A stretch of DNA of 64,000 nucleotides from Paenibacillus sp. FSL H8-0537 (GTDB lineage Bacteria > Bacillota > Bacilli > Paenibacillales > Paenibacillaceae). The notes beneath the pieces were generated by a model. The model made no database searches and was not told the DNA's origin. It saw only the letters and a list, made by a program, of their open reading frames with translations. The DNA is taken from positions 4,206,001 to 4,270,000 of the forward strand of contig NZ_CP150290.1 of assembly GCF_038051995.1 (NCBI RefSeq), read 5' to 3'. The translations under genes were made by a program, and so were the position numbers. Every line of letters begins with the position of its first letter. Position 1 is the stretch's first letter. Below are positions 1,744 to 44,492 of the stretch, piece by piece.

Positions 1744-1832
1744 CTTAGGTTCTGCTATGAAAATATGTCATGCGGACATACTCTTCCCATGTCATCTGCC
1801 CACATGCACACGACACAATGCAACTGGATGTG

Positions 1833-1884
1833 CCCCTTACACCCGCCAACGCGCCGCAACATCGATTGGAAAGCAAATAAGGAG
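1833..1884 (-). promoter_or_regulatory. Structured leader RNA element, copy 2 (candidate LoaP recognition hairpin)
   Basis: In the minus-strand RNA an outer 7-bp helix pairs 1884-1878 with 1839-1833. An inner helix pairs 1869-1866 and 1864-1863 with 1851-1846, leaving U1865 bulged. It closes an 11-nt loop at 1862-1852. The core AATCGATGTT..GGC.CGTTG matches the leader of the first PKS transcript (42462-42514) in sequence, bulge position and loop length. Paired bases differ by compensatory changes (C-G here against U-A or U-G there), which supports a conserved RNA fold. Linking it to LoaP is inference from position and from the known RNA-hairpin dependence of LoaP. Confidence 0.65.
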
Positions 1885-1923
1885 TTTGTTTCAAATATGC
1901 TATCATTTACCATCTTCTACCTA

Positions 1924-1953
1924 ATACTAATCTCGCAACATTCATTTAGTCAA
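1924..1953 (-). promoter_or_regulatory. Probable sigma-A promoter for PKS4
   Basis: On the minus strand a -35 TTGACT (1953-1948) and a -10 TAGTAT (1929-1924) are separated by 18 bp, starting five bases after the PKS3 stop codon. The hexamers, the spacing and the bases after the -10 (TAGTATTA) match the promoter proposed for the first PKS transcript at 42592-42621. Transcription would start near 1917, giving a leader of about 255 nt before PKS4. The remaining sequence from 1744 to 1832 shows nothing else I can name. Confidence 0.6.
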
Positions 1954-1957
1954 GAGA

Positions 1958-4900
1958 TCAATTCGGGATCAGGGCGCTGCTGATTTTCAGAAGGGCTTCT
2001 TCGAGGGTGATCTCTTCGTCCACCATCTCGTCCAGAATCTGCTCATAGAACCCTTCGTCAAAATTCGGCCCCTCCACCGCCCAGCATCTCTCACGGGCAA
2101 ACGGATAGGTCGGTAGCGAGAGGCGGCGCGGTCTCTCCGTACCATACAAAGAACCGTACTCCACACGCAGGCCCTTGACCCAGAGGTCGGCCAGCTTGGC
2201 AAGCTGGCCGCTCTCCCACCATTTCGTCACGAGCTCCTGCATATCTTGATCCGCCGCGAACGACAGCGAGCTGTCCGTCGCGCCTTTGACCTGACCGCGG
2301 AAGACCGCGCCAAGCGCCGGATGGCCTTGCAGATAAGCGGACAGCTTCTGCTGCAGGTCCTGTGCGGAGGTTGCCACCACGGCAAGCCGCTCTTCCATCA
2401 CTTCGCGCCCCACCTGCAAGGTATAGACCGCATCGGCGAGCGTTTCATCCGTCACAACCTGTCTGTTGATCGCCGCCTGCAGGCGCAGCACCTGCTCGTG
2501 CAGACGCTGCTCGTCTTTGGCGGACAGCACGAGCAGAGCCGGACGGTTCTGCGCGATACGGGCAGCCGCTCGCGGTGCTACCTCCGGCACATGCTCCTCG
2601 ATCACAAGATGCGCATTGGAACCTCCCGCTCCGAACGAGGAGATGCCAGCGATGCGCGGAACCTCGCGAAGCTCGCCGTCCACCTCCAGCAGCGGCCGCT
2701 TCCACTCCGCCAGTTCCCGCTGCACGACGAACGGCGTCCGACCAAAGTCGATGTTCGGGTTAAGCACGTCTGCGTGCAGAGACGGCACTAGCTGGCGATG
2801 CTTCATCTGCAGCAGCACTTTGGTCAGGCCCGCAATGCCAGCCGCACTCTCGCAGTGGCCTATATTCGATTTGACTGATCCGATCGAGCAGAATTGCGTG
2901 TCTGTCGTGTCTTCTTGGAAGACTCTCATCAATCCGGCAATCTCGATCGGGTCGCCGAGCGCCGTTCCCGTGCCGTGCGCTTCCAAGTAAGAGAGGGAGC
3001 GCGGGTGAATGCCAGCCTTTTTGAACGCGCGTCCGATCACGCGAGCTTGCAGATTCGGATTCGGGACGGAGTAGCCATTGGTCTTGCCGCCGTGATTGAC
3101 CGCCGTCCCCTTGATCACGCCGTAGATCTGGTCGCCGTCCTCTAGCGCCCTGGCGAGCGGTTTGAGCAGCACAGCGCCGACGCCTTCACCCGGCACGTAC
3201 CCGTCGCCCCCTTCACCAAAGCTCTCACAGCGCCCTTTGCTCGACGCAAACTTGCCTTGGCCGAGCATCAGGTACTTGTTCGGATGCAAGGACAGGTTGA
3301 CCCCTCCGGCCACGGCCAGCTCGCAGTCGCCTTGCTCCAGACTCTGGCAGGCCAGATGAATCGCCGTGAGCGACGAGGAGCACATCGTATCGACCGCAAG
3401 GCTCGGGCCGTGCAAGTTGAAGAAATAGGACACGCGGTTGGCGATCGACGACGGGTTGCCCGACAATGCCATCGGACGGCCCCGCAACGTCTCCTCCGCT
3501 CCGTAGAACTGATACTCCGAGTACATCACCCCGACATAGACCCCGACATTGCGCTCCTCGCCCGATTCCCCGCCTGACACAAGCGTGTCGCGAGTGTAGC
3601 CCGCATCTTCCATCGCCTCATACACGGACTGCAGGAACAGGCGCTCTTGCGGGTCCATGATCTCAGCTTCCCGAGGTGCAATGTTGAAGAACAGCGGGTC
3701 GAACTTGTCGACATCGCGCATGAACCCGCCCCACTTGCTGTACGTCTTGCCACGCTTGCTGCGATCCGTGTCATAATACGGGCTGTGATCCCAGCGCTCC
3801 TTTGGAATTTCGGTGATCGAGTCCCGACCCTCGCGCAAGTTGTTCCAGAATGCCTCCAGATCATGCGCCTGCGGGTAGCGCCCTGACAGGCCGATGATCG
3901 CGATGTCGAGCGCGCCGCTCTGTTTGGTCGGCTCCTTGACCGCCGCGCGAACCGGCGCGACGACCTTCCGCACAGGTGCTGCCACCGAAACCGATGCAGG
4001 CTCTGCTAGTCGCTCCTCGACCCCGAGCAGGTCAATCAGATGGGCACGGTGATTTTTCAAAAAGTACCCGGTCAGATCACGAATGTTCTGGTACTCGAAG
4101 AACAGCGTCTTCGGCAACGCACCGAACGTTTTTTCCAATTGACGGGTCAGCTGCATCACCATGATCGAGTCGATGCCGTACACTTCCAGCGGCCTAGACG
4201 CTTCGATGCTCTCAGCCGGAACTCCCAGGACGGAGGACAGCTGCTTTTTGAAAAAATCGGCCGCTGCGCTCGCCAGAACCGCCTCTTCCTTGGCAGTCGG
4301 GATTGGAGCTGCGGGAACCTGCTTGTTGGTCTCGCCTGTCAGCAGGTCGATCACCTGCTGAATCGTCGGCAGTTCCGAGAAGGTGCTCGGCGTCAGATCC
4401 AGGCCGAACTCCTCGTTGAGACGATCGGCCAGCTCATTCATCAGAAACGCATCGATCCCGTAGTCCAACCACTCGGCCTCGGCATCCAGTTCATCAGGTC
4501 TGACCTGCAGCAAGTCCGAGGCGAGCTGCAGCACTCTCGCTTGCACTTGGCCAGCTACGCTGTGAACCGGACGGGCAGCAGGAGCAGGGAACAGCGGGTG
4601 CAGCTTCTCCGTGATCCGGGCGAGGTCGCCCTGCACCACCATCAACTGATCGCACCCGATGGCCAAGCCCTGATAGAGAGCCCGAATCCCGTTCCGGCTC
4701 TCCAGCGGGATCATCCCCGTATGCTCTCTCATCCATTGCTCCGTCTCTGCATCCACCTGCATTCCGCCGTCTTGCCAGAGCGGCCAGTCGATCGCAAGCG
4801 TGCGGCCTTGGCGTTGCCCGCGAGCGACCAGACGATTGCGCTCGGCAGCATAAGCATCCAAGAATCCATTGGCCGCCGCATAATCGGCCTGCCCCGGATT

Positions 4901-7900
4901 GCCGAGGCAGCCGGCCACAGCGGAGAACAGCACGAAGAAGTCCAGCGGCAGCCCAATGCTCGAACGGTCGAGGTGGACCAAACCGCTCACTTTGGGAGCC
5001 AGCACCTCCTGCATCTCCTGCCCGGTCTTGCGGATGATGAAGTTGTCGCGGATCACGCCAGCTCCGTGCAGGATGCCTTGGAGGGTGCCATAGTGCGCCC
5101 GGATCTCCTCAAACAGTCCTGCGACCGCCTCTTCTCGCGTCACATCGACCTGTTGGTACTCGATGTGTGCGCCGAGATCCTTAAGCTCCCGCAGAGCCGC
5201 TTGCTGCTGCAGGCCCAAGGGGGAGCGGCCGGTGAGGATCAGTCGCGGAGCCTTGACTTGGCTTGCGATCTCTTTGGCAAAAATCAGGCCGAGTCCTCCC
5301 GCACCGCCGGTCAGAAGGTAGACGCCGCCATCGCGCCACGGGATATGTAACGCCTGCTGCGAGACTTCCGCCACATCCCAAGAAGCGACCCAGCGCTGCC
5401 CGTATCGGTAGCGGATGCGGTCATCTTGCAGGGAATGGCGATTTTCCAAAAGCTTGAGTTCCAATCCTGCCGTGTCCTCGACCTCGATCAGCTGCGCGGT
5501 CAGGTTCGGGTTCTCGCGGCGGGCGCTGCGAAGCAGTCCGGCAAGGCCGCTGAAGACCTGACCTTCTCCGTCGGCAGGCACCACGACTTGCACCAGCGCC
5601 TTGCCCTGTGGCTTGCTGCGCAGAAGGGTCTGAATCTCTTCGAACACGCGCACCGCATACGCTTGGTAGCGCTCGGCGATGTCCTGACGATCCGACTGCA
5701 GCGCCACGACCTGTCCACCGAGCACGAGAGGTGCCGTCAGCTCGCAGAGCAGCACCAGATGCTGCGACAGGGCAGGAAGGGCCGTCTTCTGCGCGATGCC
5801 CTGCTGCTTCCAGCTCGGCTGCAGCAAGTGCGCTCCCTGCGTGCGCCCCCCTGCTCCCTCTTCCAGAACGCGCGAGGTGTAGCCTTTCAAGCGCACGCGC
5901 ACCTGACCATTTTCGTCACACGCATCCACGTCGAACTTTTGCACCTTGTCTTCCGCTCTGCTGCCTTCGCTGCGGCGCACCACGGCCCACATCGAGGGCG
6001 TGCACGGACCGTAGATCTCGACTTCCTCAAACGCGAAGGGCACAAGCGGCTTGAATGACGCAGTGCCGAGCATCAGGCCGATCGCGGCCTGCAGCGCCGC
6101 GTCCATGAGGCTCGGGTGCAGAACGTAGCGGCTCTCTATGTCAGCCACGCAATCGGGCAGCGACAACTTCGCCAGCACCTGCCCCGTTCCGATCGACAGG
6201 CTCTCGATCCCTTGGTGTGCCGGCCCGTAGTCCAGCCCGGCTTGGCGGAAGAGCTCGTACAGCTCGGAAGCGCTGATTCGGTTCTGCGAGCAGGCCGTCT
6301 GCAGCGTAGCGAGATCGACGGCAGGAGCATCTGCCTTACCCAAGCGTCTCGCCCGGCCTTGGCTGTGTACGACAGCCCCCCGCCCGTCTCTGACTTCAAA
6401 GGAAATCTCCTCGCCCTCTTCCGCCCGCAGCCCGACCTGAACCTCGACCGGCCAGTTCCCTGCGAGGATCGGGCTTGCGAAGCCCACATGCTGCAAGCGC
6501 CATGCGCTGCCTTCTTCGCTCGCTCCCGCCGCCAGCTCAAGAGCTGCGCGGACCATTTCGAGATGGGCCACGCCCGGCAGAATCCGCTGTCCGTTGATCA
6601 CATGATCGGCAAGGAAGAACTCTTTTCCTGTAAAAACAGACGCATAGCGCTGCTCTTCCAGCACCGAAATGTTTTCGTGCAGCAACGGATGGAGCATGCG
6701 GGAGTTTGTGCCGCCCGCCTTCGCGACAGACTGCGCCGAACCTTCCGGCTTCCAATACCGCTCCTTGGCAAACGGATATGTCGGCAGCGGGATGCGTGCA
6801 TAGGGAAGCCCTTCAAACAGGCGTCCGTACTCCAGCGCATAGCCTTGTGCATACAGATCGGCCACGGCCGCGAGCTGTTCGAGCAGGTCTGCCCCTTGGG
6901 CAGCATGGCGACAGTTTTCGATGCACTGGTTGCCGTAGCGTTTGAGCGACGGCTGTTCCCGAAGTTCGTTCTCAAGCAATTCGCCGTGATGCACACCAGC
7001 GACTTTTCCCGTCTCCCGCCATTTTTGCAGTGACTTGACCAGTTCCGGCACATCGCGCACCACGCAGGCCAAGCGGTGAGACAGATGCTTGCGCCCGACG
7101 AGCAAGGTGTAGCTGATGTTGCCGCAGTCCGCATTCGGTTCCTGCTCGCAGAAGGCGATCAGATTCTGCACCTGCTTGCGAAGCTGTTCGGCGGTGCGAG
7201 CGGACAGCACGATCAGATGCCCCGCTCTGTCAATCGGCGTCTGAACGGTCTGCGGCGGTTCCTCGATCACCATATGCGCGTTGGTGCCGCTGAACCCGAA
7301 GGCGCTGATCGCCGCGCGGCGCTTGCTCCCCGGCTCGATGCTCCAGTCCCGCAGCTTGGTGTTTACATAGAACGGGCTGCCTTGATGCTCGATGTCTGCA
7401 TTCCACGCATCAAAATGAAGCGAGGGCGGCAGTTGTTTGTGTTCCAGCGCAAGCAGGATTTTGAGCACCCCGGCGACCCCGGCCGCCGCAGCTGCGTGTC
7501 CGATGTTCGTTTTGATCGAACCGATCGCGCAGTATTCCTTGCGATCCGTGTAGGCGCGGAAGGCGCGGGTCAAGGCGTCGAACTCGATCGGATCGCCGAG
7601 CTTGGTTCCGGTGCCGTGCGCTTCGACCAGTTGAATCTGCTCCGGATCGATCCCATGCGTCTCATAGACCTTGCGCTCTAGACGCTCTTGCGAATTGGCG
7701 CTGGGAGCGGTGATTCCGTTTGTCGTGCCGTCCTGGTTGAGCGCTGAGCCTCGAATCACGCCATAAATATGATCTCGGTCAGCGAGCGCGTCTTTCAGTC
7801 GTTTGAGGACGACGACCCCCACGCCTTCTCCCGGCACGAATCCGTTCGCCTGGTCATCGAACGTGTGACAGCGCCCCGTCGCCGAGAGCATGCTCGCACG

Positions 7901-10258
7901 CTCTGCCGTCAAGTAGAAACGAGGCGTGCTCTGGATAAAAACGCCGCCGGCCAGCGCCATGTCCGTCTCCCCCGACCGCAACCCTTGGCAAGCCAAGTGG
8001 ATGGAGACGAGCGAGCTCGAACAAGCCGTATCGACCGCGACCGCCGGGCCTTGAAGGTCTAGGAAATACGAGATGCGCGCCGGAATCACAGAGGCGGCGT
8101 TGCCCCACATCGATTGTGCTGGTGCCTGTTCAACCATCGACTGCTGGTAGTCGCCTCCGTTGATCCCGACATACACCCCGCAGGAGGCTCCTTTGACCGC
8201 GTCGCCGGCATAACCGGCCAGTTCGAGCGCTTTCCAAGACTCTTCGAGGAAAATGCGCTGCTGTGGGTCCATGTACGTCGCTTCAACGCCCGAGATGTGG
8301 AAGAACAGCGGATCGAAGCGGTCGATGTCATCGAGGAAGCCGCCTTCGTTGCAAAAGCGTGCTCCCTCCGCATGATAAGAGCGAAGATCCCATCGCGTCA
8401 CCGGTCCCACGAGATCGTCTCCGTTCGCCAGATGCTCCCACAGCTCGCCCAAGTCCCCCGACTTCGAAAAACGCCCGCTCATGCCGACGATCGCAATCGC
8501 ATTAAAATCTCCGCCTTGTTCGGAGATCTTTTTCCCCGCATCGTCTCGACCGTCAACACGACCGCCTTCTCGAGCACTTTCTCGAGCGCCTTGCTGAACG
8601 TCAGCTTGAGCTCTTGCCGTTTGCACCAATTTTGCTGCCGATGCAATTGTATTTGCAATTGCAGGGTCATTTGCGATTGCAGTCGCTGAGGTCGTCGCCG
8701 ATGTTTGAGGCTTGGCGGGAGCGAACGCTGTGGCAAGCGCTTCTTTGTATTGCCGGAGTATGTAGGAAGCCAGTTGGTTGACCGAGCTGTAATCGAACAG
8801 GTTCGTCGTCTTCAAACCGATCGGCAGCTTGTCGTTTAGTGCCTGCACCAGATGAACACCCGTGATCGAGTCCAGACCGTAATCGGCAAACGACTTGTCA
8901 GAATCAATCCGTTCCCGATCCACTTTTAAAGAAGAGAAGAGCTGGTCCTTGATCGCCTTCTTCACCCGCTCCTCGATCAGCGCTTCCGTCACCTCGGATG
9001 CCGGAGCCTCGCCCGCTTCTCTCGACACGACGGGGGTCTCCGTTTTGGGCGACTTCGCTGCGGTGGAGGCCACCGTCTGCCCTTGCCCCTGTTTCTGTCG
9101 CACCACCCCGTCGCTTTCCGCCACGATGATCTGCTGGCCGAGATCGTGCGCCTTTTGCGCCGGATGATCGACCGCGCGGAATCCTTCCGTTTTCAGCACC
9201 GAGGACCAGGTCTCCGGAGACAAGCCCGGGCAACCCGGCATGCGCAGCTCCGCATCCTCATACCGCCACCATCCATCGAGCAGGCCAAAGGTCAGGTGCG
9301 TGAACACCGAATTGCGGCTCATCTCGTTGAGCAGCAACAGGCCGTTTTTTGCTAAAACAGCCTTGGCATTGCGCAAAGTCTGGCGAATGTTCTTGGTGGC
9401 ATGTAGGCAGTTGGTCGCCAACACGAGGTCATACGCCCCCGCGTCCAGTCCCTGCCCGGCGATCGGCTCCTCCACATTGAATACTCGATAGGTCAAATAC
9501 GGAGCCTTCGGAGCATACTCCCGTTCGGCATGGAGCAAAAACGCCTTGGAGATGTCCGTGTAGCAATATTCTTCGACGTGCTGCTGATAAGGTTGCAGCT
9601 TATCAAACACCATCGCGCTCGTCCCGCCGGTTCCGGCTCCGATCTCCAAGATGCGAATGCGCGCCGCCGGCTCGTTTTTCAAACGCTCCTGCAGGTAGAG
9701 GACCACGGTGTCGGCCAGCACTTCGTTGTAGCCGTCAGAGATCGCGTTGATTTTATACACGCCTTCCACCAGCTTCATCGAGGCATCAGGAAACAGGATG
9801 TCCGTCGCCGCCCGCTTGCCCGTCAGAATGTCCGGCAGTGCGCGCATCGTCGTCTCGACCAGCACGACCTGCGCCTTGAGCTCCGCTTTTTCCAGCCAGC
9901 GAGACTTTCTCGCCTCCCACTCCTGCCAGAGCGTTTCCGACGATTCGTCGAAGCTGAGATGCGCATAACGGGTCAATAGGGCGAGGCTTTCTTCGTACCA
10001 CTTGTTATATAAGTCGGTCAAGAACCCGCGAGCCGGGTTCTTGACCGGATGCAGTCCCAGTTCGCGCAGGTGCGCCCCGAGCAGACGACAGAGGAGTTCA
10101 TCCAGTTCCTCGCGTTCACGGCTGCCTTCCGCCCAGACGCGAAGGAGGGTGGCGTCATCAGACACGAACTCCTTTCGGATCTGTTTTACAATGGAGGGAT
10201 GCTTATGCGGATAAACGGTGATGATGTCTCCTGCTCTTGTCCCTAGATACCGAATCAT
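1958..10258 (-). CDS. Trans-AT PKS subunit PKS3: MT-ACP-KS-DH-KR-ACP0-ACP-KS
   Basis: 2766 aa; the ATG follows GAGGGGG at 7 nt. Approximate order: C-methyltransferase (ILEIGAGTGGTS near 206, completing the KS-KR module of PKS2); ACP (YGLDSI near 459); KS7 from 586 (DTACSSS, EAHGTGT and NIGH all present); DH (HxxxGxxxxP near 1221, HPSLMD near 1383, both catalytic residues kept); KR (TGGAGGLG near 1650); an ACP-like domain whose serine is alanine (YGIDAF near 1935); a normal ACP (YGIDSI near 2028); KS8 from 2118 (DTMCSSS, EAHGTGT, NIGH). The C-terminus is an acidic helical tail (FYEQILDEMVDEEITLEEAL) typical of docking domains and should pair with the PKS4 N-terminus. There is no AT domain, so malonyl units must come from the AT encoded at 37903. 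Module 7 would install a methyl-free double bond; module 6 supplies a methylated carbon. Domain calls are secure; chemistry is inferred. Confidence 0.95.
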   Translation of the reverse strand: MIRYLGTRAGDIITVYPHKHPSIVKQIRKEFVSDDATLLRVWAEGSREREELDELLCRLLGAHLRELGLHPVKNPARGFLTDLYNKWYEESLALLTRYAHLSFDESSETLWQEWEARKSRWLEKAELKAQVVLVETTMRALPDILTGKRAATDILFPDASMKLVEGVYKINAISDGYNEVLADTVVLYLQERLKNEPAARIRILEIGAGTGGTSAMVFDKLQPYQQHVEEYCYTDISKAFLLHAEREYAPKAPYLTYRVFNVEEPIAGQGLDAGAYDLVLATNCLHATKNIRQTLRNAKAVLAKNGLLLLNEMSRNSVFTHLTFGLLDGWWRYEDAELRMPGCPGLSPETWSSVLKTEGFRAVDHPAQKAHDLGQQIIVAESDGVVRQKQGQGQTVASTAAKSPKTETPVVSREAGEAPASEVTEALIEERVKKAIKDQLFSSLKVDRERIDSDKSFADYGLDSITGVHLVQALNDKLPIGLKTTNLFDYSSVNQLASYILRQYKEALATAFAPAKPQTSATTSATAIANDPAIANTIASAAKLVQTARAQADVQQGARESAREGGRVDGRDDAGKKISEQGGDFNAIAIVGMSGRFSKSGDLGELWEHLANGDDLVGPVTRWDLRSYHAEGARFCNEGGFLDDIDRFDPLFFHISGVEATYMDPQQRIFLEESWKALELAGYAGDAVKGASCGVYVGINGGDYQQSMVEQAPAQSMWGNAASVIPARISYFLDLQGPAVAVDTACSSSLVSIHLACQGLRSGETDMALAGGVFIQSTPRFYLTAERASMLSATGRCHTFDDQANGFVPGEGVGVVVLKRLKDALADRDHIYGVIRGSALNQDGTTNGITAPSANSQERLERKVYETHGIDPEQIQLVEAHGTGTKLGDPIEFDALTRAFRAYTDRKEYCAIGSIKTNIGHAAAAAGVAGVLKILLALEHKQLPPSLHFDAWNADIEHQGSPFYVNTKLRDWSIEPGSKRRAAISAFGFSGTNAHMVIEEPPQTVQTPIDRAGHLIVLSARTAEQLRKQVQNLIAFCEQEPNADCGNISYTLLVGRKHLSHRLACVVRDVPELVKSLQKWRETGKVAGVHHGELLENELREQPSLKRYGNQCIENCRHAAQGADLLEQLAAVADLYAQGYALEYGRLFEGLPYARIPLPTYPFAKERYWKPEGSAQSVAKAGGTNSRMLHPLLHENISVLEEQRYASVFTGKEFFLADHVINGQRILPGVAHLEMVRAALELAAGASEEGSAWRLQHVGFASPILAGNWPVEVQVGLRAEEGEEISFEVRDGRGAVVHSQGRARRLGKADAPAVDLATLQTACSQNRISASELYELFRQAGLDYGPAHQGIESLSIGTGQVLAKLSLPDCVADIESRYVLHPSLMDAALQAAIGLMLGTASFKPLVPFAFEEVEIYGPCTPSMWAVVRRSEGSRAEDKVQKFDVDACDENGQVRVRLKGYTSRVLEEGAGGRTQGAHLLQPSWKQQGIAQKTALPALSQHLVLLCELTAPLVLGGQVVALQSDRQDIAERYQAYAVRVFEEIQTLLRSKPQGKALVQVVVPADGEGQVFSGLAGLLRSARRENPNLTAQLIEVEDTAGLELKLLENRHSLQDDRIRYRYGQRWVASWDVAEVSQQALHIPWRDGGVYLLTGGAGGLGLIFAKEIASQVKAPRLILTGRSPLGLQQQAALRELKDLGAHIEYQQVDVTREEAVAGLFEEIRAHYGTLQGILHGAGVIRDNFIIRKTGQEMQEVLAPKVSGLVHLDRSSIGLPLDFFVLFSAVAGCLGNPGQADYAAANGFLDAYAAERNRLVARGQRQGRTLAIDWPLWQDGGMQVDAETEQWMREHTGMIPLESRNGIRALYQGLAIGCDQLMVVQGDLARITEKLHPLFPAPAARPVHSVAGQVQARVLQLASDLLQVRPDELDAEAEWLDYGIDAFLMNELADRLNEEFGLDLTPSTFSELPTIQQVIDLLTGETNKQVPAAPIPTAKEEAVLASAAADFFKKQLSSVLGVPAESIEASRPLEVYGIDSIMVMQLTRQLEKTFGALPKTLFFEYQNIRDLTGYFLKNHRAHLIDLLGVEERLAEPASVSVAAPVRKVVAPVRAAVKEPTKQSGALDIAIIGLSGRYPQAHDLEAFWNNLREGRDSITEIPKERWDHSPYYDTDRSKRGKTYSKWGGFMRDVDKFDPLFFNIAPREAEIMDPQERLFLQSVYEAMEDAGYTRDTLVSGGESGEERNVGVYVGVMYSEYQFYGAEETLRGRPMALSGNPSSIANRVSYFFNLHGPSLAVDTMCSSSLTAIHLACQSLEQGDCELAVAGGVNLSLHPNKYLMLGQGKFASSKGRCESFGEGGDGYVPGEGVGAVLLKPLARALEDGDQIYGVIKGTAVNHGGKTNGYSVPNPNLQARVIGRAFKKAGIHPRSLSYLEAHGTGTALGDPIEIAGLMRVFQEDTTDTQFCSIGSVKSNIGHCESAAGIAGLTKVLLQMKHRQLVPSLHADVLNPNIDFGRTPFVVQRELAEWKRPLLEVDGELREVPRIAGISSFGAGGSNAHLVIEEHVPEVAPRAAARIAQNRPALLVLSAKDEQRLHEQVLRLQAAINRQVVTDETLADAVYTLQVGREVMEERLAVVATSAQDLQQKLSAYLQGHPALGAVFRGQVKGATDSSLSFAADQDMQELVTKWWESGQLAKLADLWVKGLRVEYGSLYGTERPRRLSLPTYPFARERCWAVEGPNFDEGFYEQILDEMVDEEITLEEALLKISSALIPN

Positions 10259-10310
10259 GTTCTTGCCCCCTCAAGTCAGGTGATTTGCTTTCCTATCTTT
10301 TGCATAATAA

Positions 10311-10349
10311 AAAGCGCCCCCTTCCCAGACAGGAAGAGGAGCGCTTTTC
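10311..10349 (-). terminator. Intrinsic terminator between PKS2 and PKS3
   Basis: An AAAAGCGC/GCGCTTTT outer stem and a CTTCC/GGAAG inner stem flank a small mismatched region. On the minus strand five T residues follow. The hairpin begins 3 nt after the PKS2 stop codon, inside the 93-nt gap before PKS3. Without antitermination or read-through it would stop most transcripts before PKS3. Confidence 0.65.
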
Positions 10350-10351
10350 AT

Positions 10352-25861: not shown

Positions 25862-25862
25862 T

Positions 25863-31800: not shown

Positions 31801-34800
31801 ACCGTCTCGACCATATCTGCGGAACGCGCGATTTCTTGAGCACTTGCCACAGCCGCTACTGTCGATTCAACTGCCGCCTCTACCACCTCATCCACTTCAA
31901 CCGTTTCCGGCAATTGCAGCAGCGAACGCAGCGTCTCTTCATACTCCTCTAGGAAATAACCCGTCAGATCTTCCAAGTTGCGGTACTCAAAGAACAGAGT
32001 CTTGGACAGCTCGGACCCAAACGCATCCTCGAATAGCTTGTTCAGCTCCAAGATCATCACCGAGTTGATGCCATACGCTTCGAACGCTTCCTCCGTCCGG
32101 ATCATCGACGGCTCCAGCCCGATCGCCTCAGACAGCAGACCCCGCACGAATTCCTGTGCGCGAGATCTCAGCACCGCCATACAACGGTCGCGAGCTGCCT
32201 GCGTTTGGGCCGTCGACACCGGGGCTGCCACCTGCACCAAGGACGATTTTTCATAATTCGTCGCCTTTATCAAGAAATTGACGAGCCGCGCCACCACGCG
32301 CCCCTCCTCGTCGCAAACGGTCAGGTTAAACTTCTTGATGTCCGGGTTGTTCTTCGTCTTCGGGCTGACTTCACTGTAAACGTGGCATCTGCGCGGCACG
32401 CTCCCCCACATCTCCAAGCTTTCGATCGCAATCGGGATAAAATCGCGCTCGTCATCGCCGTGGAAGCGGTTGTTGATCAGCGCCGTCTGGAACACGCCCG
32501 TTAGCATCGTAGGGTGCAGCAGGTACTCCTCATATGTGTCTGCGATCATCTCCGGCAGTTCCAGCGTCGCCAGCGCTTCCTGCTCGTTGAGCACCATCAC
32601 CTGCATCGGCATGAAGCTCTCCCCGACGATCAAGCCCTCCGCATGAATCTGCTGATAGACCTGCTCCCGCGTCCAGCTCGCCGTGCAGCGCTCTCGAATC
32701 GCTGCGAGATCGAGCGTTTCCACCTCGCTCTGCGCCAGCTGCCAAGGAGCATATTGTAGCGCCCCGGTCGCATGCACGACGCGTTCGGCCCCTTCCATTC
32801 TGTAGATCTCGTAGTCGGTGCGCTCCCCTTTTGGCAGCAGTTGAATGAACACATCAAACGGCTCTCCGCTCGAAGACAGTTGCTTCGCCCAGTAGCAGTT
32901 GAGCAGCTTGCTCACCCGCTGGCCCGGAAGAGCGAGTGCGCCGGCCTGTCTGGCCATCTCGGCATAGCACGCGCCTGGCACATTGTATTTGTTGTCCACC
33001 ACATGATCGACCTGATAGAACTCCGTGTTGTCATAACGTCGCTGGTACAGCCCCTGCTCGCCAGCGACCTTGTTCAGATCGATCAGCCCCGAGCTGCGAT
33101 ACAGCGGAGCCAGAGCCCCCAGCTCGGCATAGTGCGCCTCGATGACCGCGCGCTGCTTGTCTTGCAGCAGATAGTCCAGAATCTGTTGCGAGGTTCCATG
33201 TTCAAACAGCAACGGCGGTTTGAAATCGACGCCAAAATACTGCGAGATCAGGTTCGCAATCTGCAGCAGCGACAGCGACGCCACCCCGAGCTGCTGCAGC
33301 GGCTGGCTGGCACCGATCTCCGCCGGAGCCAGGTGCAGCGCTTGTGCGAGGATGCTGTAGAGATCCCGACGGATCATCGTCGGCACATCCAGTTCTCGCA
33401 CAGTCTCCGCTTTGCGGATGCCAAAGTGCTGGTTGATTTTCATCTGGTCACCTTCGATCCCTACGATGTGAGCGAAACCTTCCTGACTTGCCAGATGCAG
33501 CGCTTCCCTGAGCAGAACCCAGCCCTGCGGTGTTTCCAGCGGCTGCATCCCGAACACCTTCCAGAGATGCTCCTTCTCCTCCGGCTCCACGGTCATCCCG
33601 CCGTTCGCCCAGAGCGGCCAGTTGATCGCCAGCGACAGACCGCTGCGCCTGCCCTCGGCGACGAGCTGCTGCCGGTGCGCCGCATACGCATCCATGAAGC
33701 TGTTGCCCGAAGAATAATCGCACTGCCCTTGATTGGGCATCAGCGCTGCAATCGACGAGAACATGACAAAAAAGTCCAGTTCGTCGCCGGCCGTCGCGTC
33801 GTCCAGATGGAGCGTCCCCGCGAGTTTGGGCTGCAGGACTTTTTCAAAAGACTCAGTTGTTTTGCGCAGGATGAAGCTGTCTTCAATCAACCCGCTTCCC
33901 TGCAAAACGCCGTGGATGCTGCCATAGGTCGCACGCGCTTGCTCCACCGCCGCACGCACTTGTTCGGCATCGCCGAGGCCCGCCCGAATGTACAGGCCGG
34001 AGCCGCCCAGACTAGCCAGCCTGTCAAGCTGTGCCACGATTCTCTCATCCTGCTCTCTTCGCCCGAGCAACACGACCTTCGCCTTATATTCCTTGGCCAG
34101 ATAGTCGGAAAAAATCTGCCCCAGGCCGCCCGTGCCGCCTGCAATCAGATACACCCCGCCTTGACGCAGCGCATAAGCCTGCTTCTGCAAGCCGCCCGCC
34201 ACGGTCACCATCTCGCGCAGCTGCCTTGTCCCGCCTACATATCTCACTTCATGCAGCGGGGCCGGAGCACTCGCAAACAGCTCCTCTAGAAGCGCCCGGC
34301 CGCAGTTTTCAAAGTGATCTGTGAACGCCGCCACCTCCAGATGAAGGCGCGGGTACTCATACTTCAGCGTGCGAGCCAGCCCTCCGGCCGCATACAGGGC
34401 GGGCAGCGCCTCGGACGACATGCTCTCGCCGGCGTAGAGGATCTTGATCGGCTCTTTAAACCGGCTCTTAATCAGAGCTCCTGCCAGCACGAGCAGCCCC
34501 CGCAGGTCTTCCACCCCCGGAAGGGCGGCCGGCACGAGAATCTGCCGCACGGCAAATCCGCTTGCCTTGATCTCCTGCAGCGCTTCCAGATAGCGATCTG
34601 GGTCCTGCTCGGCGATCGTCAAGCGCCGGAACGGCACCTCCTCGCCCAGTTCGCCGTGCATCCAATCGGCCAGCGACTCCGAACCGTTGAGGAGGAGCAA
34701 GCCCTTCGCCTCCGCTTCTGGACCGCAGGCTTCCTCCCGCCACTTCGAGGTGTAATAGAGCAGCCCCTGTTCGCTCGCCGCTTCTTTTCTCGTTTCTTCG

Positions 34801-37370
34801 TTCCTTGCTTCTTCATTTCTCACCAACGCCCGCTTCGTAAAATTCTTCACCGAAGCCAGCACGCGACCTTCGCCGTCGCAGAGATACAGGTCGAACTGGA
34901 TCGAACCGCTCTGCTGCACCTGACGCTGCTTAACATAGTAATAGCGCACAGCTTCCAAGCTTCCCGCAACCGTGAAGCTCTCCGCATAATACGGCACATA
35001 CTGCGATTCGCTCGCTGTTCCGTTTCGCACGCTCAAGCACACCGCCGTCTGCAGCGCCCCGTCCAGAATGCCGGCTGCAATGCGCCAGTGATTCCGGACG
35101 TCCACCTCCGCAATCGCCTCATCAGCCGAGCAGTGCAGCGTCTCGATCACCTGGAACGAAGGCCCATACACCAGACCGTTTTCGGAAAAGAGACCATACA
35201 GCCCGGCCTTCGATTCCTTCGTCTCGCAGCGCTTGCGAATCTCCTCCACCTCGATGCGCTCTTCCATCCGCGCCACCTGCTTGAGCAGGCGGCCTTGGCA
35301 GTGCAGGTCCGCCCCCGAACGAATGCGCACAGCCCGGTCGCTTCCTTCCTCCTTCACGTTCAAGAGGAGGGTGCGCGGCTCGTCGAAAACGGCCAGCGGC
35401 TTCAGCCAATACACATCTTGGAACGTTACACCGGCTGTCCACTCTTCCTTCAGCTCTCCGACGATCAGGTCCAGATAGCCCACGCCCGGCAGCACTTTCT
35501 GCCGCTGAACGAGATGGTCTTGCACCATCCGCTCCGTAGCAGGGAGCAGGATCTGCTTGTCGCCGGAAGCCGTATCCGCCTTCAGCGTCTTCGGCTCAAA
35601 CCAGCATTGCAACCGCTCAAACGGATACCCCGGCACCTCGATGCGAGAACCGTGGAAGCTCGCCTGCTCCCAATCGATCCCCTCTCCCTTCACCCAAGCC
35701 TCGGCGAGCAGGAACAGATCGTCCGTCGACGTAGCGACCTGCACAGGCGCGTCAGGCTTCGTCACCACGACGCCTTGGAACAGCGACAGCGAGGCCTGCT
35801 CGCTCACATACCGCTCCAGCTCCTCCACCACCTGCTCCACCGACGAAGCGACCATCGCCAGACGCTCCTCGAACTCCTCGCGCCCGAACATCAGCGTGAA
35901 CGCGAGATCATCCACATGCACAGACTGTCCGGCTTCGCTTTGCAAAAATGTGAGCAGTCGCTCAGCCGATGCCCGCAACTTCCCTTTTTTCGCAGACAAA
36001 AGCACCAACCGCTTCTGCGACGCGCTCTTGGCGCGAGGTCTGTTGCTGCGCGGCGGCTCTTCCAAGATTACATGCGCATTGACGCCGCCCATGCCAAACC
36101 CGCTGACCCCCGCCTGTCTCGGCAGCAGCTTGCCTTCGATGCGCCGCTTCTTCCACGCGGTCGGAGCCGTGACGAGGCCAAACGCCGACCCCTCAAACGA
36201 GATGTACGGATTAATCTCTGTAAAATTGAGCAACTCCGGCAGCACGCCATGCTTCATCGCCAGCAGCACCTTGATGATCGAAGCCATCCCGGCCGCGCTC
36301 TCCAGATGGCCGATGTTCGTCTTGACCGAGCCGAGCAAGCAAGAGTTCTCGCGCGGCTGCAGGCCCCGCTCCTCATAGTACTGCCCATATGCATTCTTCA
36401 GCGCATTGATCTCGATCGGGTCGCCCAGCGGCGTGCCTGTGCCGTGCGCTTCTATGTAGGAGATGTTGCGCGGGTCCGCTTCGGAGCGCTGCAGCGCCGT
36501 GTAGACCACCTCAGACTGAGCGGTCACGTTGGGGGCCGTCAGGAAATTCGAGCGCCCACCATGATTGATCGCCGTCGCCTTGATTACGCCCAAGATGTTG
36601 TCACGGTCTTCCACCGCCTTGTCCAGCGGCTTGAGGAACAGGGCCGCCACGCCTTCACCGCGCACATAGCCGTTCGCCGACGCATCAAACGATTTACATT
36701 GCCCGTCCACTGACAGCATGCCGGACTTGGCATGGGAGATGTACATCCGCGGGCTGAGCAGCGCATTGACGCCCCCGACGATCGCCGCCTCGCATTCCCC
36801 TTCCCGAATATCGCGCACCGCGTTGTGCAGGGCGACCAGAGAACTGGAGCACGCGGTGTCCACGGCTTCGCTCGGCCCTCTGAAGTTGAAAAAATACGAC
36901 ACGCGGTTCGCGAGAATCGAGTGTACCGTTCCTGTGGAAACAAAGGCGCTGATGTTCTCCCCCAGCAGCTCGGCATAGTCGTTTTTCGAAACGCCCGCAT
37001 AGACGCCGATCTTCCGGCCCGACAGACTCTTCGGGCTGTAGCCAGCGTTTTCAATCACCTGCCAGACCGTTTCTAGGAACAGGCGGTGCTGCGGGTCGAT
37101 AAAATTCGCCTCTTTGGGCGAGATGCCAAAAAACAGCGGGTCGAATCGATCGACCTCCTCGATGAATCCGCCCCACTTGCTGTTCGTCTTGTTCTCTTCC
37201 TTTTGCGGGTCGCCGTACACATCCTCCCACTTCCAGCGGTCTTGCGGAATGACAGAGATGCTGTTGAGGCCTGCATTAAGGTTGTTCCAAAATTCCTGTG
37301 TGTTCTTTGCCCCCGGAAAACGACCGGCGATTCCGACGATGGCCACTTCTCGCTTTGGCGTTTGAGTCAT
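25863..37370 (-). CDS. Trans-AT PKS subunit PKS1: KS-DH-KR-ACP-DH*-ACP-KS-DH-KR-ACP-KS0
   Basis: 3835 aa; the ATG follows GAGGAG at 9 nt. Order (rough residues): KS1 at the very N-terminus (DTACSSS 170, EAHGTGT 310, NIGH 353); DH (DHLVQRQKVLP 618, the usual motif glycine replaced; ILDGALQ 768); KR (GGTGGLG 1077); ACP (GVAS 1363); a DH-fold domain directly after the ACP (DHVVDNKYNVPG 1458, but HPTMLT at 1620, so the catalytic Asp is Thr); ACP (GINS 1767); KS2 from 1866 (complete); DH (DHVVYGNLVLPG 2513, HPTLLE 2683, Asp to Glu); KR (TGGTRGLG 2976); ACP (YGVDS 3289); KS3 from 3385 with DTACSSA and NIGH but NGSGT in place of HGTGT. Loss of that His marks a non-elongating KS0. The KS0 at the C-terminus and the DH-ACP opening PKS2 form a split dehydrating bimodule, which would dehydrate the hydroxyl made by KR2. 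There is no loading domain in front of KS1. Confidence 0.95.
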   Translation of the reverse strand: MTQTPKREVAIVGIAGRFPGAKNTQEFWNNLNAGLNSISVIPQDRWKWEDVYGDPQKEENKTNSKWGGFIEEVDRFDPLFFGISPKEANFIDPQHRLFLETVWQVIENAGYSPKSLSGRKIGVYAGVSKNDYAELLGENISAFVSTGTVHSILANRVSYFFNFRGPSEAVDTACSSSLVALHNAVRDIREGECEAAIVGGVNALLSPRMYISHAKSGMLSVDGQCKSFDASANGYVRGEGVAALFLKPLDKAVEDRDNILGVIKATAINHGGRSNFLTAPNVTAQSEVVYTALQRSEADPRNISYIEAHGTGTPLGDPIEINALKNAYGQYYEERGLQPRENSCLLGSVKTNIGHLESAAGMASIIKVLLAMKHGVLPELLNFTEINPYISFEGSAFGLVTAPTAWKKRRIEGKLLPRQAGVSGFGMGGVNAHVILEEPPRSNRPRAKSASQKRLVLLSAKKGKLRASAERLLTFLQSEAGQSVHVDDLAFTLMFGREEFEERLAMVASSVEQVVEELERYVSEQASLSLFQGVVVTKPDAPVQVATSTDDLFLLAEAWVKGEGIDWEQASFHGSRIEVPGYPFERLQCWFEPKTLKADTASGDKQILLPATERMVQDHLVQRQKVLPGVGYLDLIVGELKEEWTAGVTFQDVYWLKPLAVFDEPRTLLLNVKEEGSDRAVRIRSGADLHCQGRLLKQVARMEERIEVEEIRKRCETKESKAGLYGLFSENGLVYGPSFQVIETLHCSADEAIAEVDVRNHWRIAAGILDGALQTAVCLSVRNGTASESQYVPYYAESFTVAGSLEAVRYYYVKQRQVQQSGSIQFDLYLCDGEGRVLASVKNFTKRALVRNEEARNEETRKEAASEQGLLYYTSKWREEACGPEAEAKGLLLLNGSESLADWMHGELGEEVPFRRLTIAEQDPDRYLEALQEIKASGFAVRQILVPAALPGVEDLRGLLVLAGALIKSRFKEPIKILYAGESMSSEALPALYAAGGLARTLKYEYPRLHLEVAAFTDHFENCGRALLEELFASAPAPLHEVRYVGGTRQLREMVTVAGGLQKQAYALRQGGVYLIAGGTGGLGQIFSDYLAKEYKAKVVLLGRREQDERIVAQLDRLASLGGSGLYIRAGLGDAEQVRAAVEQARATYGSIHGVLQGSGLIEDSFILRKTTESFEKVLQPKLAGTLHLDDATAGDELDFFVMFSSIAALMPNQGQCDYSSGNSFMDAYAAHRQQLVAEGRRSGLSLAINWPLWANGGMTVEPEEKEHLWKVFGMQPLETPQGWVLLREALHLASQEGFAHIVGIEGDQMKINQHFGIRKAETVRELDVPTMIRRDLYSILAQALHLAPAEIGASQPLQQLGVASLSLLQIANLISQYFGVDFKPPLLFEHGTSQQILDYLLQDKQRAVIEAHYAELGALAPLYRSSGLIDLNKVAGEQGLYQRRYDNTEFYQVDHVVDNKYNVPGACYAEMARQAGALALPGQRVSKLLNCYWAKQLSSSGEPFDVFIQLLPKGERTDYEIYRMEGAERVVHATGALQYAPWQLAQSEVETLDLAAIRERCTASWTREQVYQQIHAEGLIVGESFMPMQVMVLNEQEALATLELPEMIADTYEEYLLHPTMLTGVFQTALINNRFHGDDERDFIPIAIESLEMWGSVPRRCHVYSEVSPKTKNNPDIKKFNLTVCDEEGRVVARLVNFLIKATNYEKSSLVQVAAPVSTAQTQAARDRCMAVLRSRAQEFVRGLLSEAIGLEPSMIRTEEAFEAYGINSVMILELNKLFEDAFGSELSKTLFFEYRNLEDLTGYFLEEYEETLRSLLQLPETVEVDEVVEAAVESTVAAVASAQEIARSADMVETVEMTPHAPAVRDIAIIGLAGRYPQAGSLAEFWANIQAGKDCIEEIRPNRFDYVRYYDPDKQNDKLYSKWGSFLDDVDKFDPMFFNIPPREAELMDPQERLFLEVVWHALEDAGYTRQSLSDQSVGVYVGALWQPYQELGVLAQAQGHVLSPSTLLYSIANRVSYFCNFNGPSLTVDTACSSSLTALHLACQSLLNGESSVAIAGGVNLSIGAGKYLFLSQYKFLATDGRCRSFGADGDGYVPGEGIGAVLLKPLDQAVKDGDHIYGVIKATAVNHGGKTNGYTVPNPTAQSDMILKALEWAKINPRAISYIEAHGTGTALGDPIEITGLSRAFGKYTRDKQFCAIGSVKSNIGHLEASAGIAGLTKVLLQLKHRRIAPSLHSQQLNANIDFRNSPFVVPQELMEWKRPLVEIDGQTREFPRLAGLSSFGAGGANAHVIIEEYQAVEQQRDHFGTAPHVIVLSAKNADRLQEQAQRLLQAVESGAYSEADMPAIAYTLQLGRETMEERLAVLASSLKELSAKLQDFLSGKRGIDGLFHGHIKHYKDTLALFAQDEDMQAVIEAWQAKGKFSKLLDLWAKGLSIDWSRQYATGKPGRISLPGYPFAKESYWLPIDGAVQSGTGVGRAVLLHPLVHENTSDLTEVRFRSTLTGREFFLRDHVVYGNLVLPGVAELELARAAALLAMGLEANDPTSMRLKDVVWPQPIVAAGESIRLHVGLHALEDGEIAYEISGDIPQGEEAPTLYSYGEVEICAFDPAPPLDLHALQVQSGLGVLTAEQCYDVFRALGTAYGPSLQGIETLYLGESHVLAKLALPSAALATEADYVLHPTLLEAAVQAMNAFTLKQTDRKPTRPVSLQSLDILRPCRSAMWALIRSGEAGYDLDLCDETGEVCVQMRGLVLEPVEGEWQGNSTAAERKMYFLKKVWEPCSAAPSRSVNLVVAILTTPETRSLATELAKRLPQSRLFDVAQERQELDWQAYDGLIDLVGCGQERKESAEWMSWLQLLIEHGRRDGMMLLGVTKGLEGYQNATVNLAGASRAALYTMLQSEYGYVQSRHLDLEPVTDEMRLAEQIAAEFLVEDEETEACWRNGLRYRARLKEWEKGEQQARTPFPEDQVLWITGGTRGLGYLCAQHFVKHYGVKRLVLTGRETLPPRETWAAHLREQTSVSRKIQGIQALEREGAQVMALSVPLSDVQAVEESVQAVRRSLGPIGGVLHAAGLLDEENSAFIRKSVEGIEKVLEPKVAGLDALYRSLRAEPLQFFVAFSSVSATIPSLAAGLSDYAVANAYMDYLAEAKRPECPIVSVQWPSWKEAGMGEVKSRAYEQTGLLTMSNAEGLEFLDYVLARKIGPVVMSAVVNPSLWNPQTLMQRKKQTAALPTPPVVPAQRPAAPAQKASVVAGGQGQTAEAWVRSIFAKELKMDPAKIEVDAQIADYGVDSILQVQLLRQIAQALQVKLDPSLLLEFPTIESLAKHLEALHGPPLANATGATQVQQEELAAPSYRAPSRPAKQRVEKQGQAAVRKAAPASGAADLAVVGLSCRLPGAASLEQYWQLLSEGRSAIRKVPQGRWGYSSGFDAGLLDDITQYDPSFFHLSEEDAKAMDPQALLVLEESLKLLCHAGYTQQEVKGRSVGVYLGARSKHSPSTADLSQTRNPILAVGQNYLAANISQYFDLRGPCVVVDTACSSALVGMNMAAQALQSLEIESAIVGGVSLLTTDETHRIFEQRNILNRKGAFHLFDRRADGIVVGEGCGMVLLKTVEQALRDGDTIYAVIKAVAVNNNGRTAGPATPSLEAQKQVLQAALRKGGVSPAAVRYIETNGSGTEVTDLLELKTIQSVYRASSNLPLGLGSMKPNIGHPLCAEGIAGFIKVVLMLQRRQMVPFLSGEEAMTHYDLQASPFEMARQLMPWTDTARIAAINCFADGGTNAHVILEGWEESEERSILRRPLPLPVLQRCDVSGRGQGERAESAMNIWKKIGVEV

Positions 37371-40900: not shown

Positions 40901-41298
40901 AGACAGGTAGCCTCAAACGCCTTGGCCTGCTCCACCACCAACTCCAACGCTACCTCCACATCGAGCACACCTGCCACAGCCGCCGCCGCGAACTCGCCCA
41001 TGCTGCTGCCAAGGACCGCATCTGGCTTGACCCCGCGGGCCATCAGCGCCTGCGCCAGCGCATATTCCACCATGAAGATCGCGGGGTGGGTCAGCAGCGT
41101 CCGTTCAAACGGCTCGTCTCGGCGCTTGTCCTCCGCATACAGACGCGCCAGCACCGACTCCCCAACGAGCGGCGTCACCATCTCGTCCAACTTGTTCATC
41201 CACTTGCGAAACTCAGATACCTCCTCATAGAGCCCTCGACCCATCTGGTAAAACTGAGAACCCTGCCCGGAGAAAAGAAACACTACCGGATTGCCCAT
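37903..41298 (-). CDS. Trans-acting acylhydrolase/acyltransferase-acyltransferase-enoyl reductase fusion
   Basis: 1131 aa; the ATG follows AGGAGG at 7 nt. Three parts. Residues 1-320: an AT-fold domain with GQGSQ and nucleophile motif GSSMGE. This resembles the first AT of tandem trans-AT proteins, often an acyl hydrolase that clears stalled chains, though an acyl-loading role is possible. Residues 329-620: a second AT with GQSSQ, GHSLGE and GAFHSRYM, the malonyl-type AT expected to load extender units on every ACP. After a proline/alanine/valine-rich linker (about 630-690), residues 700-1131 are a PfaD-type FMN enoyl reductase ([37 protein letters not shown]). None of the PKS modules has its own ER, so any saturation depends on this domain. 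The gene is 36 bp after the hydrolase gene. Domain assignment is firm; the role of the first AT is inferred. Confidence 0.93.
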
Positions 41299-41334
41299 CC
41301 ATGTCCCTCCTGAACGCGACTAGTCTGCCTTGAT

Positions 41335-42015
41335 TTATTTAAAATTGAACAATTGTCCCTGATTCTTGCGCATCCGAAACCGGACAAAATGCTCTATTTT
41401 CTCAATCTGAAAATAGATATTGTGCTCCAGCACATCCCGAAACGCCATGCCCGGCTCCTTGCCATAAGAATGACCCGGATACACCCGCACATGAGGGGGA
41501 GTGGACTTGCGAATCCTCTGAAAACTGTCATGCATCTGCTCCGGGGAACCTCCGGCCCCATCACAGACGCCGCAGCCTTCAATAAACACCGTATCCCCTG
41601 TGATCAGATCGTCTGCGAGCCGAAAACAAGCCCCGCCGGCCGTGTGCCCTGGCGTCAGCATGCAGGTGATAGGCGTCTCTCCCAGCCAGATCGTCTCCCC
41701 CTCCTCAAACGGATGCAGATTCCGACATACGAACCCGTAGGCATCGATCTCCTTGACCGACATGTACGCCCGCGCCGCCGGGTGGAGCTTGAGCAGCGGC
41801 TCCACCTTGTTGACATGATCGTGATGCGAATGTGTCAGCAGGATGCAAGCCAACTCCGCCTCCAATGAGCGAAGCATCCCGTCGAGCAACTCCAAGTCCC
41901 AAGCCGGGTCCACCACAGCCGCCTGCCGGGTTGCTTTGTCTACGAGTATGTACGCATAATTTTTCATGAACAAAAACTCAACCTTTAACGGGTGTAACTC
42001 ATAGCTCCGCCTCAT
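41335..42015 (-). CDS. Metallo-beta-lactamase-fold hydrolase (glyoxalase II-like)
   Basis: 226 aa from the ATG at 42015, preceded by GGGGAGG at 4 nt. The frame extends upstream, but only through the leader hairpin, so the longer version is not credible. Residues 1-30 start with MRRSYELHPLKVEF. The metal-binding signature THSHHDHV is near 68-75, and later GHTAGG, the aspartate of DLITGDTVF and GHSYGKE complete the fold. Homologous hydrolases (BaeB/PksB type) sit in many trans-AT PKS clusters and are thought to hydrolyse thioesters, but their role is not settled. This is the first gene of the PKS transcript, immediately after the leader terminator, so its expression should depend on antitermination. 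Confidence 0.88.
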   Translation of the reverse strand: MRRSYELHPLKVEFLFMKNYAYILVDKATRQAAVVDPAWDLELLDGMLRSLEAELACILLTHSHHDHVNKVEPLLKLHPAARAYMSVKEIDAYGFVCRNLHPFEEGETIWLGETPITCMLTPGHTAGGACFRLADDLITGDTVFIEGCGVCDGAGGSPEQMHDSFQRIRKSTPPHVRVYPGHSYGKEPGMAFRDVLEHNIYFQIEKIEHFVRFRMRKNQGQLFNFK

Positions 42016-42042
42016 CCTTCCTCCCCTCTCTTCAAGTCCTAA

Positions 42043-42098
42043 AAAGCAAGCACAAAAAAGTAGAGGAATGATCTCCTCTACTTTTTTGTGCTTGCTTT
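42043..42098 (-). terminator. Leader terminator of the PKS operon (25-bp perfect stem)
   Basis: Bases 42043-42067 pair perfectly with 42074-42098 around a 6-nt loop. Within it, an 8-bp stem (GTAGAGGA/TCCTCTAC) is flanked by six A and six T residues, the canonical layout of an intrinsic terminator that works in either direction. The outer 11 bp (AAAGCAAGCAC/GTGCTTGCTTT) extend the helix past the T-run. The structure ends 28 nt before the start codon of the first operon gene and about 490 nt after the proposed transcription start. Confidence 0.88.
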
Positions 42099-42112
42099 GG
42101 CTATTTATATAT

Positions 42113-42350
42113 ATATCTTCTTCCACCTTGCACAACAGATCCTGCACAGCCTCCAAGTTCAAACGGCAGTCCTTGGGACAGGCAATCGCAAAGACACGCT
42201 CCCCACTACCCAGCCCGCAACTCGGAACTGCGGAAAATGAGAGTAAGCCGCCAACTCGTCGCAATGAGAGATGCTAACCTGCAGATTGAGAGCGGCAGGG
42301 TGTACGATCAGCGGCTGGTGAAGAATCCCCCGATAGCGCACAGCAAACGC
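42113..42350 (-). pseudogene. Decayed PPTase-like gene fragment in the operon leader
   Basis: One minus-strand frame from 42341 reads RYRGILHQPLIVHPAALNLQ then VSISHCDELAA. This resembles the stretch of Sfp/AcpS-type phosphopantetheinyl transferases that ends in the SISH motif. After a frame change near 42200 the text VFAIACPKDCRLNLEAVQ could correspond to the following metal-binding D..E region. An in-frame TGA at 42351-42353 cuts the frame upstream, and the start of the gene is not recognisable. PPTases activate ACPs and often accompany trans-AT clusters, so a relic here is plausible, but the call rests on short motifs. A non-coding leader remains the alternative. Confidence 0.35.
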
Positions 42351-42461
42351 TCAACCAAGCGCTGTACGGGTCCACTCCCCCTCACACGTCAAGTCCCTGC
42401 ACGAAGCTCTCCAGAGGACACACTTCCCCCATGCTTCTTCCTCTCAATGCGATTCAATATG

Positions 42462-42514
42462 ATACCCTAAGTTCCTTCAACGTGCCTAAACATCGATTAA
42501 ATTAGCTTAGGTAT
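42462..42514 (-). promoter_or_regulatory. Structured leader RNA element, copy 1 (candidate LoaP recognition hairpin)
   Basis: In the minus-strand RNA an outer helix pairs 42514-42506 with 42471-42462 (nine pairs, G42467 bulged). An inner helix pairs 42501-42497 and 42495-42494 with 42482-42476, leaving U42496 bulged. It closes an 11-nt loop at 42493-42483 (AUGUU..GGC.). The loop and closing C-G/G-C pairs match copy 2 at 1833-1884; the outer helix has a different sequence but still pairs. It lies about 70 nt after the proposed start of the main PKS transcript. Function is inferred from the adjacent loaP-type gene and the downstream terminator. Confidence 0.65.
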
Positions 42515-44473: not shown

Positions 44474-44492
44474 GAGGTTCAACCCCTATGCG

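Follow-up and report, generated by a model that had tools for sequence, protein, structure and literature searches.

The question raised by this locus is what purpose is served by two similar RNA hairpins in the leaders of one polyketide synthase (PKS) cluster. The cluster lies on the minus strand of a 64,000-nucleotide (nt) stretch, hereafter the window, of the 7.0-Mb genome of Paenibacillus sp. FSL H8-0537. It is of the trans-acyltransferase (trans-AT) type, with a metallo-beta-lactamase-fold gene, a free-standing acyltransferase protein and giant frames, in one of which ketosynthase and acyl carrier protein domains were detected by domain scan. The gene for a NusG paralogue of the LoaP type (loaP) lies on the opposite, plus strand and diverges from the cluster. 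A first-pass annotation of the window had described matching hairpins at 42462-42514, in the main PKS leader, and at 1833-1884, in an internal leader between two PKS genes, and had proposed them as candidate antiterminator recognition elements. Both hairpins are present on the minus strand, and the proposal is supported by the co-occurrence of the hairpin with loaP and by homologous loci in a Bacillus genome: it is highly probable that both are LoaP-recognition elements homologous to those of the dfn and mln operons of Bacillus velezensis and work as antitermination modules.

The two copies share 18 of 21 core bases, in keeping with the likeness first reported. In copy 1, in the main leader, the outer helix is CCUAAG/CUUAGG and the inner helix is UUUAA-(U)-CG-(A)-UGU[UUAG]GCA-CG-UUGAA; in copy 2, in the internal leader, these are CUCCUUAU/GUAAGGGG and CCAA-(U)-CG-(A)-UGU[UGCG]GCG-CG-UUGG, respectively. 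The outer helices differ in sequence and are both able to form, and beneath the A-U pairs common to both copies the next two pairs read U-G and U-A in copy 1 versus C-G and C-G in copy 2, so that the compensatory differences and the unlike outer helices of the first-pass annotation are borne out. Its 11-nt loop was rejected, since the minimum-energy folds contain the C-G and G-C pairs followed by one bulged base and a three-pair stem capped by a tetraloop (UUAG in copy 1, UGCG in copy 2), an apex with which relatives carrying GC-UUCG-GC agree. The tetraloop of copy 2 is of the UNCG type and that of copy 1 departs from strict UNCG; 3' of copy 2, CACATC is found instead of the CATA that follows copy 1. 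The folding energy of single copies is unremarkable (z -1.68, -0.50, -2.14 and -1.56) and was not used as evidence, and the significance of the hairpins is therefore drawn from comparison. A motif derived from the two window copies is matched exactly at two places in the genome, each within this PKS cluster, and at three mismatches it has five further matches versus four for a reversed-pattern control. A covariance model search of the same genome, in which 150 of 1662 first-look candidates were scored, returned two hits at an expectation value (E) of 5 or below, namely copy 1 (3.6e-13) and copy 2 (4.6e-7), both of which were in the training set. A search of the window against Rfam 15 gave no match at the gathering score of any family.

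A covariance model search for further copies had been suggested as a check by the first-pass annotation, and further covarying copies were found. LoaP homologues were gathered with flanking DNA at 49 loci, 32 of which have the hairpin within the fetched flanks (31 by pattern and one more by the model), and these relatives near loaP occur in Paenibacillus, Thermoactinomycetes, Bacillus and Clostridia. By place and flanks, 36 pattern hits were kept by hand, the rest being set aside as presumed chance matches or duplicates (some antisense to loaP). Locus L050, which has its own fold without such a hairpin, and L061, which is near-identical to L059, were removed, and the alignment comprises 34 hand-picked copies, selected with their flanks in view. 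In this alignment 97.4% of inner-helix cells are paired, six of the ten pairs have changes on both sides, and both-side changes occupy 46 cells versus 14.4 in shuffles, a total that none of 500 shuffles reached. The apical pairs were set by the search pattern; 40 of the 46 cells belong to the five basal pairs (columns 20-24 with 41-45), which lay outside it.

The wider collection holds 38 non-redundant copies out of 101 raw matches. The outer helix, which was absent from both the search pattern and the structure of the model, has a mean score of 12.7 versus 7.8 after exchange of the 3' flanks (at most 10.2 across 1000 swaps), and of 12.9 versus 8.8 (0 of 1000 swaps as high) in the 13 of the 38 copies outside model building; an outer helix of four pairs was not found in four of the 38. 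The tetraloop is UNCG in 28 copies, UNAG in nine and UUUG in one, the collecting pattern itself having specified U, C or A, and G for the loop while tolerating a single mismatch across the core. In 22 of the 38 copies CATA begins 17-20 nt beyond the core, compared with a mean of 0.63 and a maximum of four in equal windows further downstream (54 windows); it is present in 16 of the 25 copies collected by pattern through LoaP loci and in six of the 13 found by the model, whose flanks include CATA. Proteins near the start of hairpin-bearing operons are acyltransferase or condensation-domain proteins in eight of ten cases. On these comparative grounds, the window hairpins are members of a covarying RNA family that accompanies loaP.

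The LoaP-binding UNCG hairpin was reportedly first described by Elghondakly et al. in 2021. In B. velezensis, LoaP binds UNCG hairpins of the dfn and mln leaders (PMC12691694). Covariance model R1 has two hits in G548, a genome of the Bacillus genus called B. velezensis-like from its gene layout and from the residues E40, R41, K128 and I143 of its LoaP, as numbered for the B. velezensis protein (PMC12691694). Both hits lie outside the training set (E 2.8e-9 and 1.2e-5), one beside loaP and upstream of a 792-amino-acid (aa) acyltransferase protein, the other upstream of an 801-aa acyltransferase protein and a 4085-aa frame, and each precedes a trans-AT PKS operon. The dfn/mln-type cores in this genome are AAUCGCUGUUUCGGCACGUU and AAUCGUUGUUUCGGCACGUU. 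The UNCG-type hairpin, the trans-AT PKS leader, the intrinsic terminator downstream and the presence of loaP in the genome are common to the dfn/mln hairpins and the window, whereas the UUAG loop of the main copy, the two same-promoter modules per cluster, and the outer helix and CATA described here set the window apart from what the available portion of the paper describes. The window hairpins are very probably members of the dfn/mln LoaP-binding element, an identity based on homologous loci and not on published primary sequence.

The dfn-like leader of G548 has an outer helix, CCTATT/AATAGG, shortly upstream of the inner hairpin, and in the mln-like copy (L163) the outer helix is weak and at another spacing. 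In B. velezensis, antitermination was lost on deletion of the 10 nt that precede the dfn hairpin, and mln is without an obvious similar sequence there (PMC12691694); an outer helix conserved in pairing and not in sequence would explain both the effect of the deletion and the dissimilarity of mln. Literature searches returned no description of the outer helix or CATA in the listed titles or abstract starts, and an earlier published consensus could still include either. As far as the published picture was available, the covarying outer helix, the CATA motif and the two same-promoter modules with their terminators would be additions to it.

The LoaP-type protein attributed to the cluster was confirmed with NCBIfam NF033641, to which it scores 226.5 bits versus a cut-off of 125; the other match in the genome scores 79.6 bits, and the close relatives of the window LoaP are Paenibacillus records. 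E40, R41 and I143 are the RNA-binding residues of B. velezensis LoaP, and mutation of R41 lowers difficidin and macrolactin (PMC12691694). In that numbering, E40 and I143 are invariant in 13 aligned LoaPs, including that of the window, where they are kept as E43 and I146 and where the position of R41 is taken by K44. Lysine at this position is also found in the LoaPs of L062, L005 and L006, which have a hairpin nearby.

The joint distribution of hairpin and LoaP was recorded in three samples of genomes. In the Bacillus genus (44 genomes) the hairpin is present in four and LoaP in the same four (p 7e-6; p 8e-5 without the training genome G478), and one of the other three positives, G544, carries a LoaP that shares 99% identity with the one of G478. 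In the genus of the window (51 genomes) the hairpin is present in five, LoaP over the cut-off in four and both in four, three of the latter being training genomes. The phylum sample (398 genomes) was searched with stricter filters, with 13 candidates scored per genome among the rows shown, and its hairpin and LoaP results concern the same genomes as far as shown; the hairpin is present in two, LoaP (E<=1e-40) in 12 and both in two. Because both hits are training genomes, this sample informs specificity only. Among genomes without LoaP, the hairpin is carried by 0 of 386 in the phylum sample, 0 of 40 in the Bacillus genus and one of 47 in the genus of the window, and it is found in 28 of 40 genomes picked via loaP loci, the majority of which are behind training copies. 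The hairpin is thus specific for genomes with LoaP, but this version of the model gives no hit for many LoaPs, especially those of Clostridia.

The fetched stretches around LoaP loci of gut-type Clostridia, Thermoanaerobacter and others (L108-L117, L100-L103, L079, L084, L086 and L088-L090) contain no good model match, and the LoaPs of these loci may use a different or strongly diverged element. A search for divergent hairpins near 26 LoaP loci found one versus 0.8 expected, and a Caldicoprobacter copy ending in GUCAUAGA, a weak but plausible divergent candidate (E 0.66 and 1.3), was not counted. Some Paenibacillus genomes have multiple elements, with four hits in G487 (one at E 0.07) and three each in G473, G495 and G499. 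In such genomes loaP lies within the fetched stretch for L172, L173, L174, L176 and L177, and nonribosomal peptide synthetase or trans-AT PKS genes are near some of the hits, which suggests several LoaP-controlled clusters per genome.

Each hairpin copy has a sigma-70-like promoter match upstream and an intrinsic terminator downstream (Table 1), the arrangement given by the first-pass annotation. Promoter matches number three in the main leader region versus 2.5 expected from shuffles, which is not beyond chance, and two versus 0.6, somewhat above shuffles, in the internal leader region; the promoter calls are therefore based on conservation and on their match to each other. The pattern TTGAC-N19-TAGTATTA has two matches in the genome, one upstream of each hairpin, and its reversed control has one; since the pattern was written after both had been seen, its weight lies in the absence of a third match and in the correct placement of the two. 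Six of seven aligned leaders (those of the window and five close relatives) retain the main promoter and the more distant L062 does not, and the internal promoter is identical in all five internal leaders aligned. Intrinsic terminators were recognised in both window leaders (42047-42094 and 1715-1746), and at -12 kcal/mol or better they occur within 480 nt downstream in 21 of 39 leaders versus a mean of 2.7 in ten shuffles. Two earlier scans were dropped, one as too strict (6 of 39 leaders) and one as too loose (32 of 39, with 20-26 in shuffles). The leader terminators of the distant LoaP targets L080, L097, L104 and L175 are alike, with GCTTRCGG...CCGYAGGCATTTT about 88-93 nt after the core, and conservation of the module may extend to the terminator itself. 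The arrangement of two modules recurs, at a spacing of 40.3-40.6 kb, in five genomes that have both hairpins on one contig. A plasmid search with the internal leader gave no match.

Several observations weigh against the hairpins being LoaP-recognition elements of this kind. The loop of the main copy is UUAG and not UNCG, the window LoaP has K44 where R41 matters in B. velezensis, and 18 of 39 leaders are without a terminator at -12 kcal/mol within 480 nt. Without the training genomes, the table for the genus of the window is reduced to one genome with both hairpin and LoaP, one with the hairpin only and 46 with neither (p 0.04), and the model has no hit in 10 of the 12 phylum-sample genomes with LoaP, both hits being training genomes (those of the window and of L072). 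G011, a genome of the same genus, has a hairpin hit without LoaP over the cut-off. This hit (L171:15024-15039, E 2.7e-5) has the loop UUUG and lies close to a contig end, and it may be either a chance match, an orphan element or an element whose LoaP is on a missing stretch.

The same hairpin of G011, together with the position of hairpins in 5' leaders before terminators, would be accommodated if the elements acted independently of LoaP, whether as attenuators, as parts of riboswitches or in stabilising mRNA. Such a role is very improbable, given the lack of any Rfam match at gathering score in the window and given that, G011 apart, none of the genomes without LoaP in the three samples carries the hairpin. 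A role as DNA inverted repeats bound by a transcription factor, and not as RNA elements, is equally hard to credit: the hairpins do lie directly downstream of promoter-like sequences, which are themselves shared, but their G-U pairs, asymmetric bulges on one strand, UNCG-type tetraloop and covariation fit RNA, both window copies are in the orientation of the operon, and in the published homologue it is the RNA that is bound (PMC12691694).

A further question concerns the internal module (1922-1715), which could be a re-loading site for polymerases that started at the main promoter and lost LoaP over 40 kb, and not a second transcription unit. Consistent with this, a module with its terminator lies between two co-directional PKS genes and is kept in the five internal leaders aligned, and the distance between hairpins is held in the five genomes noted above. 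Re-loading alone is nevertheless unlikely, since the promoter-like sequence before the internal hairpin, which has 13 bases in common with the main promoter and is invariant among the aligned internal leaders, would be superfluous for it; the roles of second promoter and re-loading site may coexist.

Under the preferred reading of the hairpins as LoaP-recognition elements, the published mechanism, in which LoaP of B. velezensis binds RNA and brings about read-through by antagonising NusA (PMC12691694), would be expected to operate in this organism as well. The promoter would start transcription of the leader, and the nascent leader would fold into an outer helix of free sequence and, beyond an internal loop, a conserved inner helix that has two bulges and is capped by a UNCG-type tetraloop. 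LoaP from the divergent gene would bind this hairpin and join the elongating RNA polymerase, and the LoaP-loaded polymerase would pass the intrinsic terminator that would otherwise stop transcription before the first gene. With two same-promoter modules, the first upstream of the entire operon and the second upstream of the fourth PKS gene, LoaP would gate both parts. A nascent RNA hairpin likewise recruits an antitermination protein in the boxB/N system of lambdoid phages (PMC12691694), to which no sequence relation was seen and in place of whose N the window has a NusG paralogue. Operon-specific recruitment of a NusG paralogue is also the basis of ops/RfaH (PMC12691694), in which the signal is non-template DNA with a pause, whereas that of the window is an RNA hairpin, to which CATA may add a DNA or pause component. 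A two-part loading of LoaP is put forward tentatively, with the balance somewhat against it: the composite hairpin would be read in its inner helix by sequence and in its outer helix by shape, and CATA, 17-20 nt after the core, would be in the transcription bubble at about the time of the hairpin's exit from the polymerase, and could there act through a pause or through contact with non-template DNA.

Table 1. Coordinates of the cluster, its leaders and loaP in the window
Feature	Position	Strand	Remarks
Hairpin copy 1 and CATA	42458..42514	-	Main PKS leader, upstream of the first gene; CATA at 42458-42461
Hairpin copy 2	1833..1884	-	Internal leader between two PKS genes
Promoter-like TTGACG-N18-TAGTAT(TA), main leader	42590..42621	-	Promoter match and conservation in relatives
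Promoter-like TTGACT-N18-TAGTAT(TA), internal leader	1922..1953	-	Promoter match and conservation in relatives
Intrinsic terminator, stem of about 20 pairs then T run	42047..42094	-	Directly upstream of the first gene; present in G032 too
Intrinsic terminator, stem of 14 pairs then T run	1715..1746	-	Downstream of hairpin copy 2, ahead of the next PKS gene; a similar one in the five internal leaders aligned
loaP, NusG paralogue, 187 aa	42757..43320	+	Divergent from the main leader; NF033641 226.5 bits
First operon gene, metallo-beta-lactamase fold	41335..42015	-	Start chosen by eye, ATG after GGGAGGAAGG; listed open reading frame longer
Free-standing acyltransferase protein, 1131 aa	37903..41298	-	Acyl_transf_1 twice, NMO domain
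Three giant PKS-sized frames	1958..37370 (25863-37370, 10352-25879, 1958-10258)	-	Domain scan covered the last 999 aa of the third
Next PKS gene after the internal leader	1..1662	-	KR domain; extends beyond the window; start by eye, ATG after GAGGAGG

Between the main hairpin and its terminator, a decayed coding stretch is present on the minus strand (42100-42400), which by its motif resembles an Sfp-type phosphopantetheinyl transferase. In P. tyrfis (L060) and P. maysiensis (L061) a matching frame, downstream of the hairpin, is open over the part read; in G032 it is decayed. On the loaP side of the cluster, the minus strand at 43718-46971 encodes a sigma factor, a histidine-kinase-like ATPase and a D-Ala-D-Ala carboxypeptidase according to the domain scan, an order that is presumably the layout of the sporulation region spoIIA/dacF.

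LoaP-recognition elements are thus findable from sequence by a covariance model, which gave no hits without LoaP in two samples and one in the third. The model provides a direct means of listing candidate LoaP-controlled antibiotic operons, those not adjoining loaP among them, and the outer helix and the downstream motif become testable additions to the LoaP antitermination system, for which this Paenibacillus cluster would be a natural case of two LoaP modules in one cluster.

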